A DNA stretch of 36,939 bases from Candidatus Sungbacteria bacterium RIFCSPLOWO2_01_FULL_54_21 (GTDB lineage: Bacteria > Patescibacteriota > Minisyncoccia > Sungbacterales > HO2-52-23). The notes below the pieces were generated by a model, which did no database searches, was not told the DNA's origin, and was given only the letters and a program-made list of their open reading frames with translations. Below are positions 1-30,813 of this stretch, piece after piece (the stretch's first letter is position 1; each line of letters opens with the position of its first letter). The position numbers were made by a program, and so were the translations under genes. The stretch spans positions 1 through 36,939 of the forward strand of contig MHQR01000001.1 in NCBI GenBank assembly GCA_001820725.1, written 5' to 3'.

Positions 1-3000
1 CGGAGTCGTATCATTCGCGCTGTCTTCTGCCCATAAGGTGTAGCCGCTGCCGAGGTTGGAAAGGAGGAATGCGGTGTTTGCTCCTGCGGTTGAGGTGGCT
101 ACGGCAAATGCGGCTCCGGGGGTAGTGGTGCCTATGCCAATGCCAAATCCTCCTGATATAGTGGAGGTGGCTGTTCCGGTGCCCAGATTGATGTCATTGC
201 CTCCGATAGAGAGGTCAGAGGAGATATAGGTGTTGTGGGCTACGATGTCATTGCCGATGATAGAGAGGTCAGAGGAGATATAGGTGTTGTGGGCTACGAT
301 GTCATTGCCGATGAAGTTGTGAGTGGCATCCACCTCAATGTCGTAGACCTGTTCATCGGGTGTGTGTTCTATGGAGGTGATGCGATCCCAGATTGCGTTG
401 GCGCCATCATCGCCTACGACGGCGATGTGCATACCTTCTTTCAGATACATCACCTTTGTCCATAGGCCATGCTTGACAGGCATACTCTCCGGAATTATGC
501 TTGATAGCGCAGTCGCAGGATTGCTTTTACCGCCCGTTGCAAAAGACGGGCTTTTGTGTTGATTTGACAGAGCAGTCGCCGCGGTGCTATGGTGATGCCG
601 TATGGCAAAATCATCTCTCACTATCATAGACGACAAGAACTTACGCGGCGTGCTTGCGCCCTCATCAGTGTTCTCAAAAGAAATGTTGGAAGATGTCATT
701 GATCTCGTCGAGCTATCCGCGCCCGACAGAGCAAGCGAAACCGAGAGGCGTCTCAAGGAGGCAAACCGCAAAAACTCTTGGATTCCTTTTGCGCGAGCAT
801 ATACCCGAGCAAAGAAAGCGCGCTGATCTCCTTTTGCTTTCATCTCGCTATGCTCACCGTCTCCATTCATCCGACTGCCGAGAAAGAGCTGCTCCGCATC
901 CCAAAAGATTTCCGGCTCGCGATTTTGGAGAATATCGCGGAGATTGAGGCGCTCACTCATCCGTTGCAACACCGACGGGTTATTAAATTGCGCGGGAGAA
1001 AAACCAAAGATTTTCGCTTGCGCGTAGGAGATTATCGAGTGGAACTCACCCTTGAAGAATCCTCTGCTGTTCGCATTACCCGCGTAGAACACCGGCAAGC
1101 CGGATACTGAATCAGTCCGCACCAAATACGGATGCTCCGCAGTAGTCCGTATGCTCTTGCCTGATGCAGTCGTGATCTTGTAGATGGGTTTGACTCCCAT
1201 ATCCATCAAGGCATTCACCTTTGACCAGACAATAATGCCGGTCTGCTCATCAAGAGATGCAATCTCGTCTCCTGCTGGGATATCGCGGATAGCAATTTCA
1301 TCATAGATGTAGTCGCTCTCCGCGAGAGCTTGGAGATTGGAGATTGGAGATTGGTCATCGGAATCTAAGTTCCACGTTCCGAGTTCCACGTTCCGTTTGC
1401 GCCTGCGCCTTCTGCGCAATCGCGTATCCCCGGTCACGCACTGCCCCACGACATGAAGGGCTTGAATGGGAGTGAGGGTGCCGATGCCGACGTTGCCCGT
1501 ACTGCTGGGGTTGAGCAGAATATGATTATTTCCTCCGGGCTGGATAGTGAGGTTGGTGGATGCGGTAGAGATGGCGCCTCCGGTAAGGGTGAGTCCATTT
1601 GCGGATGCAAGCCCTCCTCCTGCAACGCTCAATCCGGCAGATGCCCATGTAGAGGTTGCCGATGAGGTATTGGTGATTGATCCTCCTGACAGAGAGATGC
1701 CGTTGGAGGAGAAGAGTCCTCCTTGTCCTGCGAGTACGATGCCGTTGGACAAGGTGTTGGTTGCCGTATTGGTTTGCAGGAGAGAGCCGCCGGTGATGGT
1801 GATACCCGTGGAGGTGGCGAGGTATCCTGATGCGGAGAGTCCGGTATAGAGGGTGGAGGTTGCCGCGGAGACGAAATTGCCTACGCCGTTGATAGAGAAG
1901 AGGGAGCCGGGAGTGGTGGTGCCGATACCGATACTGCCCGTCCCGTCAATCCAGAAGTGCGGCGTTGAAGTGCCCTTGTCACTCACCACAAACACGGGCT
2001 CAATCTGCGTCTGTTCAATGGAGAAGAGTCCCCATGGCGATGATGTGGCGATGCCGACTCGTCCGGTTGCGACGGAGGTATCCAGAGAGAATAATGTATT
2101 CTGGGTGGTTGATGCGGCAAAGGCAAAGGCGTTGACTGTATTATTCAGAACCGTGGAGGTGGCGAAGTTTTCATACCGGATGGATCCGGCGTAGATATTC
2201 AAGATGTCTCCGACGGCGTCTCCTACGGTGAGCGAGTTTTCAATGCTGAAGTTGGAGGCGGTAGTGGTGGCGAGGACGCTTCCCCCCACCGTCGTAATTG
2301 AGTTTGCGAAAATATCTCCCTCTGCGTCCACGAGGAAACGGGGAGAGCTGTTGACCGCAAGACCGATGAGGTTGGTGTCGGCGGCGGCTGACGGCGGATT
2401 AATAATGAAGGGAGCATTCAGCACATTGGATCCTGCAACGCCCGTGCTCCATGCCGAGAAAGAGTGTGGGAGCGTTGGCACAAAGGAGAATTCCGTTTTG
2501 CCGAGGAAGGAGGTGGTGGCGCTGGCTCCTTGCGTGTTGAGCGTGCCGCCCACCGTTAATCCCTGACTTACGAGAATGTTGCCGCTGACGCTGAAAGTCG
2601 TTCCCGGCGTGGTGGTTCCCAATCCAATGCGATAGTTTGCCGTATCAAAGGTAAGGAACGGAATGGCGGTGGTGGACGTTGCGATGGAGAAGGCATTAAC
2701 CTTGTCCGAAAGAATGGTGGTCGTGGCAACGGTGTTGAAAACAAGATCCCCACCGCCCAGCGTAATGTCCTGCGTGGAAAGGATGGTTCGCGCAGTGAGG
2801 ATATCAGCAGAGATATTGCCCGACGTAATAGTGAGGTTGCCCGAAGTGATGTCTATGTTCCCGGATGCCACCGTCATGCCATTTCTTACGGTGATGCTGT
2901 TGAGATTATCAATGTCCTGGGAGACGGTTACCATTTGGATTGAGGAGGCGGCTGACTGGGAGGCGGAAGATGCGGTCCTTGAGATGCCCGATATTTCTTT

Positions 3001-3963
3001 TCTGACGTATTCGCGGATCTGGGCGTTGATGGTCTCGAGATACGCGAGGAGTTCGTTTTTGACGGGGGTGAGGTCGGCGGTGACGATCTCGGTGCGACGT
3101 TCAGTAATTTCGCGCATCCTGTTAGTTTCGGAAATCACCGGCGAGAGAGGAGGAGCTTTTTCTGTTTCTGCAGGCGTCGCGGACACAGAACTCTCCACCA
3201 TGTGAGATATTGATACAGGAACAATAGGCGGTGCAATTTCCTGTACCAGGACGCGCGTTTCTGTTTTTGCAAACCACGTCCATACCGCATTCGCAACTTT
3301 CTCTACCGCGCGCCGCGCCGGCGCAAAAAGTGCGATGACACGTTCCTGCCCGCCGAATCCTTCATCCGCGACAGATGCAAGCATTGCAACGTCATCAAGC
3401 ATTTTTTTCGCCGTCTCCACAGCCGCAATCTTTGCATTTCTGAAATCACTGCCACGCTCGGTAACGATGGCCGAGGTCCGCGCGGCCTGCCATTCCTGCA
3501 CACCGCGCACTCCCGCAATCCCCGCAACGGTGGATACCGCCAGCGCCAGCCCGAGAACGACGCCCTCCTGCGCGATATGCGCGAAAAAACGGCGCGTCGT
3601 AGCCATCTTCACTGAAATTTCCTTTTCTGCTCTAAGCGCAGGATATCGGATGGCATCCGATATCGTATAGGATGCCTGCGGAGCAAGAAAGTCGTTTGGG
3701 GTGCTCCCCCCATTATCGTTAACTTTCTTTATCAGTGTCTCTCTCTGCCGCGCAGCATATGCCGCAACTGCGGTCTTTGTCGTGTACCAATTGCGCCCGA
3801 ATTTCCTCGCATCCAGCTTTCCTTTTCGGACAAGCAAAGACAAATACTCTTGCGAGTACGGAGTCCCGTCCGCGGCCTGTCCAAGCGAGATATAAATTTT
3901 TCTTTCCTCTTCTGACATTTCAGCGATCCGATATGCGGAACCAATACCGTATCGGATGAGCAT
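1..3963 (-). CDS. Large surface fibre/adhesin-like protein (partial; runs off left edge): N-terminal HTH-like domain, one TM segment, repetitive GIGTTTP/TSTxx repeats, interrupted by an intein
   Basis: I translated the minus strand in the frame of ATG 3963-3961. There is no stop from 3963 to 1 (1321 codons). It starts MLIRYGIGSAYRIAEMSEEERKIYISLGQAADGTPYSQEYLSLLVRKGKLDARKFGRNWYTTKTAVAAY (HTH-like), then TM VVLGLALAVSTVAGIAGV, then repeats such as GSIGIGTTTPGSLFSINGVGNFVSAATSTLYTG. Absent from the ORF track, probably because no stop lies inside the window. Confidence 0.88.
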   Translation of the reverse strand, partial: MLIRYGIGSAYRIAEMSEEERKIYISLGQAADGTPYSQEYLSLLVRKGKLDARKFGRNWYTTKTAVAAYAARQRETLIKKVNDNGGSTPNDFLAPQASYTISDAIRYPALRAEKEISVKMATTRRFFAHIAQEGVVLGLALAVSTVAGIAGVRGVQEWQAARTSAIVTERGSDFRNAKIAAVETAKKMLDDVAMLASVADEGFGGQERVIALFAPARRAVEKVANAVWTWFAKTETRVLVQEIAPPIVPVSISHMVESSVSATPAETEKAPPLSPVISETNRMREITERRTEIVTADLTPVKNELLAYLETINAQIREYVRKEISGISRTASSASQSAASSIQMVTVSQDIDNLNSITVRNGMTVASGNIDITSGNLTITSGNISADILTARTILSTQDITLGGGDLVFNTVATTTILSDKVNAFSIATSTTAIPFLTFDTANYRIGLGTTTPGTTFSVSGNILVSQGLTVGGTLNTQGASATTSFLGKTEFSFVPTLPHSFSAWSTGVAGSNVLNAPFIINPPSAAADTNLIGLAVNSSPRFLVDAEGDIFANSITTVGGSVLATTTASNFSIENSLTVGDAVGDILNIYAGSIRYENFATSTVLNNTVNAFAFAASTTQNTLFSLDTSVATGRVGIATSSPWGLFSIEQTQIEPVFVVSDKGTSTPHFWIDGTGSIGIGTTTPGSLFSINGVGNFVSAATSTLYTGLSASGYLATSTGITITGGSLLQTNTATNTLSNGIVLAGQGGLFSSNGISLSGGSITNTSSATSTWASAGLSVAGGGLASANGLTLTGGAISTASTNLTIQPGGNNHILLNPSSTGNVGIGTLTPIQALHVVGQCVTGDTRLRRRRRRKRNVELGTWNLDSDDQSPISNLQALAESDYIYDEIAIRDIPAGDEIASLDEQTGIIVWSKVNALMDMGVKPIYKITTASGKSIRTTAEHPYLVRTDSVSGLPVFYAGNANSRGFFKGEFHSIISYAQAKIFGFSPAQFNNPSVLQRMSERLNLRDILQNREPEIFWDAEQLFLGSRMNGDGEHSEMKAKGDQRAFFARVYARAKGIQEFLRFASLRRLSVSLALSGADSSTRSMTSSNISFENTDEGASTPRKFLSSMIVRDDFAIRHHHSTAATALSNQHKSPSFATGGKSNPATALSSIIPESMPVKHGLWTKVMYLKEGMHIAVVGDDGANAIWDRITSIEHTPDEQVYDIEVDATHNFIGNDIVAHNTYISSDLSIIGNDIVAHNTYISSDLSIGGNDINLGTGTATSTISGGFGIGIGTTTPGAAFAVATSTAGANTAFLLSNLGSGYTLWAEDSANDTTP
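205..314. repeat. 54-bp tandem duplication at the intein C-terminal splice junction
   Basis: 205-260 is identical to 259-314 (offset 54). Encodes TYISSDLSIIGNDIVAHN twice. Confidence 0.93.
564..593 (+). promoter_or_regulatory. Promoter of the intein-nested TA cassette
   Basis: TTGACA (564-569), 18-nt spacer, TATGGT (588-593) with TGn extended -10; ATG at 602, so the transcript is probably leaderless or nearly so. Confidence 0.55.
602..826 (+). CDS. Putative antitoxin of a type II TA pair, encoded antisense inside the intein ORF
   Basis: 74-aa ORF MAKSSLTIIDDKNLRGVLAPSSVFSKEMLEDVIDLVELS...ARAYTRAKKAR, immediately upstream of a RelE-like ORF and preceded by a good promoter. Antitoxin role inferred from position and size. 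Confidence 0.7.
   Translation: MAKSSLTIIDDKNLRGVLAPSSVFSKEMLEDVIDLVELSAPDRASETERRLKEANRKNSWIPFARAYTRAKKAR
850..1110 (+). CDS. RelE/ParE-superfamily toxin, encoded antisense inside the intein ORF
   Basis: 86 aa: MLTVSIHPTAEKELLRIPKDFRLAILENIAEIEALTHPLQHRRVIKLRGRKTKDFRLRVGDYRVELTLEESSAVRITRVEHRQAGY, with the typical RelE pattern (VIKLRG...DFRLRVGDYRV...I.RVEHRQ..Y). Confidence 0.82.
   Translation: MLTVSIHPTAEKELLRIPKDFRLAILENIAEIEALTHPLQHRRVIKLRGRKTKDFRLRVGDYRVELTLEESSAVRITRVEHRQAGY
3642..3664. repeat. Perfect palindrome GATATCGGATG-G-CATCCGATATC
   Basis: 11-bp arms, 1-nt centre, inside the N-terminal part of the fibre gene. Related ATCCGATA/TATCGGAT arms at 3926-3933 and 3950-3957. Confidence 0.8.
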
Positions 3964-30522: not shown

Positions 30523-30813
30523 TTATACGGCAACGCCGACTTTTCCCTCCATGCGCGTCAGCCGTTCTCCGTGCTCTTTCAGTTCCTCGCGGATATCAGG
30601 CAGATCGGAGATGTCTTCACGGAGAAGATCAATACGTTTGTTCACAGCATAAAAGCCGTCACGCACTTCGGTGCGGAGTTGCGCCAAATCCTCTTTGCTT
30701 GCCATGGCTTTTAGATCCTCTTTGCTTGCCATGGCTTTTAGATCCTCTTTGCTTGCCATGGTTCGCTGGATCATCGCCGCGAGTTCCTCAAGCGTGGTTA
30801 CTTTATCTACCAT
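30523..30813 (-). CDS. Small coiled-coil protein with tandem MASKEDLKA repeats
   Basis: MVDKVTTLEELAAMIQRTMASKEDLKAMASKEDLKAMASKEDLAQLRTEVRDGFYAVNKRIDLLREDI. 27-bp DNA repeat at 30688-30761. Confidence 0.65.
   Translation of the reverse strand: MVDKVTTLEELAAMIQRTMASKEDLKAMASKEDLKAMASKEDLAQLRTEVRDGFYAVNKRIDLLREDISDLPDIREELKEHGERLTRMEGKVGVAV

Follow-up and report, generated by a model that had tools for sequence, protein, structure and literature searches.

A gene for a fibre-like surface protein at the start of the window (the whole 36,939-nt stretch of DNA that was analysed) contains an intein whose C-terminal splice junction is present twice. The questions are which junction would be used, how the second copy arose and what the intein carries in its interior. 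Inteins are normally maintained by a homing endonuclease, and they are regarded as spreading in this way or decaying to mini-inteins. A preliminary description of this locus had recognised the junction duplication, which stands, but had overlooked both the antisense toxin-antitoxin (TA) cargo and the absence of a homing endonuclease. Our joint reading, which we consider likely, is that of a class-1-type intein with a junction duplicated by slippage, in which the first Asn is used and an antisense TA operon occupies the place of the endonuclease. The features are collected in Table 1.

Table 1. Features of the intein locus, their positions in the window and the basis of each assignment (a slash marks the splice point).
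Feature	Position	Strand	Basis
Fibre-like surface protein gene (host/extein), 1321 aa	1..3963	-	ORF and translation
Intein, 385 aa, Cys1 to Asn385; N-extein ...LHVVGQ; +1 Thr	286..1440	-	PF14890, TIGR01443, alignment with 49 relatives, Hint model
Block B, TTAEH	1132..1146	-	T99, T100, H103, P104 invariant in 50 inteins
Block F, VYDIEVDATHNF	313..348	-	D367, E369, T373, H374, N375, F376 invariant in 50 inteins
First (canonical) C-terminal junction GNDIVAHN/T, Asn codon 286-288	286..309	-	N379, I381, A383, H384, N385 invariant; model strand 391-394
Second copy GNDIVAHN/T, Asn codon 232-234, without its own block F	232..255	-	Sequence; model residues 402-449 with pLDDT <50
54-bp tandem duplication (56 nt exact, offset 54)	205..314		Repeat finding and sequence comparison
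12-nt copy GATGTCATTGCC in extein (GGNDINLG), slippage partner of 298-309	190..201		Repeat family D6
Cargo region between block B and C-terminal Hint half (approximate bounds)	475..1107		Alignments; low-pLDDT middle of model
Terminator-like hairpin upstream of TA promoter	532..551	+	One found against 0.7 expected in shuffles; weak alone
Sigma70-like promoter TTGACA-18-TATGGT, TG before -10	564..593	+	8 nt before antitoxin ATG
Antitoxin-like gene, 74 aa	602..826	+	39-53% identity to four genes, each adjoining a toxin homologue
RelE/ParE-fold toxin gene, 86 aa	850..1110	+	PF05016 profile and RelE-like model

The 3' end of the fibre gene is missing, since the contig starts at base 1 and the minus-strand ORF runs off it. 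The encoded protein has an HTH_17-like N-terminus (a weak HTH_17 match), followed by long GIGTTTPG-type repeat stretches and the intein. It is a DNA-binding-type domain that opens this surface fibre (window 3740-3963), ahead of a likely transmembrane segment, and the ORF of locus L010 starts in the same way, with an HTH_17-like domain and then a likely transmembrane segment. L010 (3-5306, on G006:C11) also has three related inteins in one fibre protein, with three different inserts (one of them NYN), at equivalent LSIAGH/C...HN/TYLTGGLG sites. Two contigs of another family member both break at the extein sequence GNDINLGTGTATS (the end of G004:C3 and the start of G004:C5; L011, L012), which suggests a multi-copy region that assemblers cannot resolve.

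The intein has the layout C-VTGDTRLRRRRRR ... THNFIGNDIVAHN/T. It was matched by the PF14890 profile at 3e-19 and by the C-terminal profile TIGR01443 at 9.5e-8. A Foldseek search with an AlphaFold model of the intein and its flanks found the NpuDnaB intein (PDB 4o1r), with a target-normalised TM of 0.90 over the Hint halves; pLDDT was above 90 in these halves and low in the middle. These three matches bear out the preliminary assignment as an intein. For comparison, 50 distinct intact inteins, that of the window included, were gathered from 74 named loci and from same-class genomes, and Cys1 was invariant when all 50 were aligned. The window intein combines Cys1, a block B T-x-x-H, blocks F and G, a terminal His-Asn, a +1 Thr and a Hint fold, as class 1 inteins do, and on these motifs the insert appears to be a class-1-type intein that would splice in cis. 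In its linker (1326-1395), the short repeats GAGATTGGAGATTG and AGTTCCACGTTCCG are translated as SPISNLQ / NVELGTWN and resemble dispersed repeats that the intein frame passes through.

The duplication reported in the preliminary description was found as an exact 56-nt match of 205-260 with 259-314 at an offset of 54. A repeat finder delimited the copies as 190-243 and 244-297 (94%) and placed a third copy, of 12 nt, at 298-309. Translated on the minus strand, the region gives THNFIGNDIVAHN/TYISSDLSIIGNDIVAHN/TYISSDLSIGGNDIN, so that two VAHN/T junctions are encoded, 18 aa apart. We found no other exact repeat of comparable size at short offset within the first 3 kb. In 458 kb from 84 related loci there were only four comparable tandem repeats, none of them at a splice junction, and a duplication so rare is not due to chance. 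One further short tandem repeat, with an offset of 27, was noted at 30688-30734 of the window.

The 12-mer GATGTCATTGCC (plus strand; GGCAATGACATC in the gene) is present at 190, 244 and 298. Outside the repeat, it encodes the GNDI at the intein end and the GNDI of the extein GGNDINLG. Copy 2 is a hybrid, GATGTCATTGCC-GAT-GATAGAG, with its left part like 298 and its right part like 190; this hybrid junction excepted, the 54-bp copies have no later change. If the ancestor had one copy, ...FIGNDIVAHN/TYISSDLSIGGNDINLG, an in-frame 54-bp copy of its C-terminal junction would be the outcome of slippage, or of unequal recombination, between the outer pair of 12-mers. Slippage at the 12-nt repeats is the likely origin, and the direct repeat and hybrid junction agree with the original proposal of slippage at GNDI-like sequence. 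A comparison with relatives, also proposed there, gave a single junction in all 49 other intact inteins, and no second genome with the duplication was found among the genomes searched, all of which lie outside the window's genus.

All 50 intact family inteins end in HNF-x(3-8)-HN followed by Thr, and only in the window is this junction duplicated. The spacing fits the window's first site, and the second site lies 18 residues beyond. In the AlphaFold model, the first His-Asn (residues 394-395) ends strand 391-394, inside the Hint fold, and the second site is in a predicted disordered tail, with everything from residue 402 on below pLDDT 50; because the alignment favours this outcome, the model is supporting rather than independent evidence. 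Judged by alignment and model, splicing most likely uses the first Asn with Thr+1. The upstream copy had been proposed as the active one, and block F spacing, the 49 relatives and the model all point to it as canonical. The accompanying suggestion that the second copy might serve as an alternative site found no support: this copy has no separate block F, is without counterpart in the other 49 inteins and falls in the predicted disordered tail. Splicing at the first site would leave the 18-aa repeat TYISSDLSIIGNDIVAHN in the fibre, which probably tolerates it, and the second junction copy is probably inert.

Two other accounts of the duplicated junction were weighed. Both Asn residues could be used in alternative protein splicing to give two fibre isoforms, and use of the second site, possible but unlikely, would restore the fibre protein as it was before the duplication. 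No difference separates the copies, either in the last 8 residues of the intein or in the TYISSDLSI that comes next, and for this reason the sequence itself cannot tell the two junctions apart. However, the second site needs 18 residues to be looped out between blocks F and G, a spacing seen in no relative, and the model puts the first copy alone in the fold, so we regard the production of two isoforms as highly improbable. The other account attributes the duplication to misassembly, or to a mixture of strains collapsed into one, in the MAG. The repeat comes from a single genome, about 190 nt from the contig end, and when the missing downstream part of the fibre gene was sought in the same genome, no other contig was found to continue it; the two G004 contigs likewise end at the same extein. 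Against this, a typical read is longer than the unit, which keeps the reading frame, and the hybrid junction is what slippage predicts, which makes an artefact unlikely. The duplication offers a natural experiment on the choice that an intein makes when its C-terminal junction is present in two identical copies. It is nevertheless a minor, single-genome event, and the TA-bearing intein family is the more unusual finding.

The cargo of the window intein occupies, by alignment, the position of a homing endonuclease. In PMC6801210, endonuclease domains within inteins are all placed at one conserved insertion site, and the loop that holds the window cargo corresponds to this site in the alignment. 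The product of the downstream antisense gene was matched by PF05016 (ParE) at 3e-6 (28.2 bits, gathering score 23), and structure comparison of its model returned RelE structures with TM 0.73-0.82. The antitoxin-like product had no match to a Pfam family. The order of antitoxin then toxin is common to five genomes, those of the window and of L138, L139, L140 and L048; the homologous pair is free-standing in L138 and L139 and antisense inside inteins in L140 and L048. Nothing useful came from NCBIfam searches of the antisense ORFs or from PADLOC, which was run on the TA pair of the window along with five related ORFs. From homology and gene order, we infer that the intein interior is an antisense two-gene module of RelBE/ParDE type, with a promoter of its own and a putative TA function.

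We then looked at the cargo of the whole family. None of the 50 inteins was matched by a homing-endonuclease Pfam family, while the same method detected LAGLIDADG at 1.9e-24 in the FtsH intein of family member G012, which served as positive control. A homing endonuclease in the window insert was rejected as it had no such Pfam hit. Scanning the antisense ORFs of the 50 inteins with Pfam gave DUF433 (four, 1e-23), DUF5615 (four, 1e-14), ParE (three) and DUF6722 (two). Pairs of DUF433 and DUF5615, which may act as VapBC-like TA systems, were inside the inteins of L056, L067, L090 and L091, and another antisense ParE pair was inside that of L100. Ten TA or TA-like modules were weighed, eight of them supported by profile or homology (window, L048, L140, L056, L067, L090, L091, L100) and two by appearance alone. 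The latter, L062 and L064, are RelE-like pairs by eye and were not counted as supported, since their toxins had no Pfam hit.

Other cargo was also found. An in-frame NYN domain is present in 18 of the 50 inteins, and a small antisense ORF, apparently membrane-spanning and alike by eye, in L029, L030, L076, L091 (1996-2901), L098 and L106. These small membrane ORFs have strong promoters, and two of those scanned were DUF6722-like. A promoter score of at least 10 out of 12 within 60 nt of the start was found for 13 of the 16 embedded antisense genes or operons considered; random windows in the same loci reached this score in 1.35% of cases. No P value is attached to this enrichment, since the set was picked after inspection and some of its genes are related by descent. 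Split inteins of the same family, with N- and C-halves in separate ORFs, were seen in L092, L094, L107, L141, L142 and L145. Between their halves are sense-strand genes, including one for a PD-(D/E)XK nuclease-like protein in L141 and L142, and ORFs resembling this protein occur in the remaining four. Also encoded between such halves is a protein that resembles, by eye, the four-helix-bundle proteins of rRNA intervening sequences.

The TA genes and the intein share the same DNA on opposite strands. No stop interrupts the intein frame along the full TA region of the window, L140, L048 or L056. In the free-standing pairs, every opposite frame has stops, with at least 2 in the best opposite frame of L138 and at least 7 in that of L139. 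When codons were redrawn synonymously, the window frame stayed open with a probability of about 0.04 (toxin) times 0.42 (antitoxin). Since an open frame was a condition for including an intein, this statistic is biased and speaks for compatibility and probable selection rather than as proof. Three frame-broken inteins (L050, L077, L078) have the break in the N-terminal linker, and no TA genes were seen in them.

Several inteins have closely similar ends and different interiors. The two inteins L054 and L056, from one genome, have halves 90% and 95% identical but their interiors differ. In L140, whose two inteins have ends 96% and 93% identical, only one intein has the RelBE-type pair; L140 and L091 share an N-half at about 91% and nearly the same promoter sequence but have different TA families. 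These near-identical halves with different interiors are the best evidence that the splicing halves may form a frame into which different cargo can be exchanged. When insertion sites free of an intein were sought by regular expression, one doubtful case was found.

The fibre precursor would splice and restore the fibre, the intein removing itself, while the TA pair would be made from the opposite strand off its own promoter. The intein would then give the TA pair a safe harbour that removes itself. Loss of the intein would remove the source of antitoxin, and the TA pair may, by making this loss costly, help to keep the intein in the population. We suggest tentatively, from the sequences compared, that this intein family of Patescibacteria surface fibres gave up homing and persists by addiction through exchangeable antisense TA operons. 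In its cassette form, with the halves as frame and TA pairs, NYN nucleases or membrane proteins swapped, this addiction reading is likewise possible, short of probable.

Two alternatives bear on these steps. Open antisense frames are common opposite coding strands, and many of the antisense ORFs listed are such chance openings; the TA genes could be too. But they have Pfam matches, a RelE fold and promoters at the expected place, the gene pairs are conserved, free-standing homologues included, and same-strand shifted frames, used as control, gave 0 Pfam hits. Spurious ORFs were rejected for the TA pairs on these grounds, and we give this explanation almost no credence. A stronger contender is that the TA pair is ordinary chromosomal cargo (e.g. 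for phage defence) in an insertion-tolerant intein, to which it is of no use. Free-standing TA homologues exist, the cargo is varied, with small membrane proteins and NYN among it, and the usual reasons for which TA genes persist could apply here. The recurrence of TA or nuclease-like cargo at one position in many inteins, replacing the endonuclease, speaks against cargo of no use to the intein, which we nevertheless hold to be quite possible, if somewhat short of an even chance. A TA operon at the endonuclease position suggests another route of persistence for a protein-level parasite. The intein interior may also be a new chromosomal niche for TA modules, and where annotation disallows gene overlap, TA genes may go unnoticed, as may Hint domains that contain unusual inserts.

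A search of the open-access literature found no paper linking inteins with an NYN domain, describing TA genes inside inteins or combining intein, antitoxin and opposite strand; being limited to open-access papers, it does not prove novelty. The sole Parcubacteria paper found there to mention inteins appears to concern rRNA insertions. Among known systems, the window intein is closest in fold and motifs to class 1 inteins such as the NpuDnaB mini-intein (4o1r), sharing the Hint fold, Cys1, block B TxxH, block F, His-Asn and a nucleophilic +1 residue, but its host is a repetitive surface fibre, it has an antisense TA pair at the endonuclease position and its junction is duplicated. With full-length LAGLIDADG inteins (the G012 FtsH intein), it has in common that the loop from block B to the C-terminal Hint half carries an insertion, though it has no endonuclease and its cargo, under a separate promoter, is encoded on the opposite strand. 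Like type II TA systems of the RelBE / ParDE kind, the window pair has an antitoxin followed by a toxin, a RelE fold and the RLRxGxYR motif; unlike them, it is antisense in an intein and its antitoxin is of no known family. The DUF433/DUF5615 pairs are also two-gene pairs in the same position and orientation but differ in toxin fold and are absent from the window. Dassa et al. reportedly described, in 2009, fractured genes with split inteins, which the six split loci resemble, whereas the window intein is contiguous in one frame. Finally, BIL domains are likewise Hint domains in surface or secreted proteins, but their +1 residue is non-conserved and often non-nucleophilic. A BIL domain was rejected on this account, as every relative of the window intein has a +1 Thr, as in true inteins.
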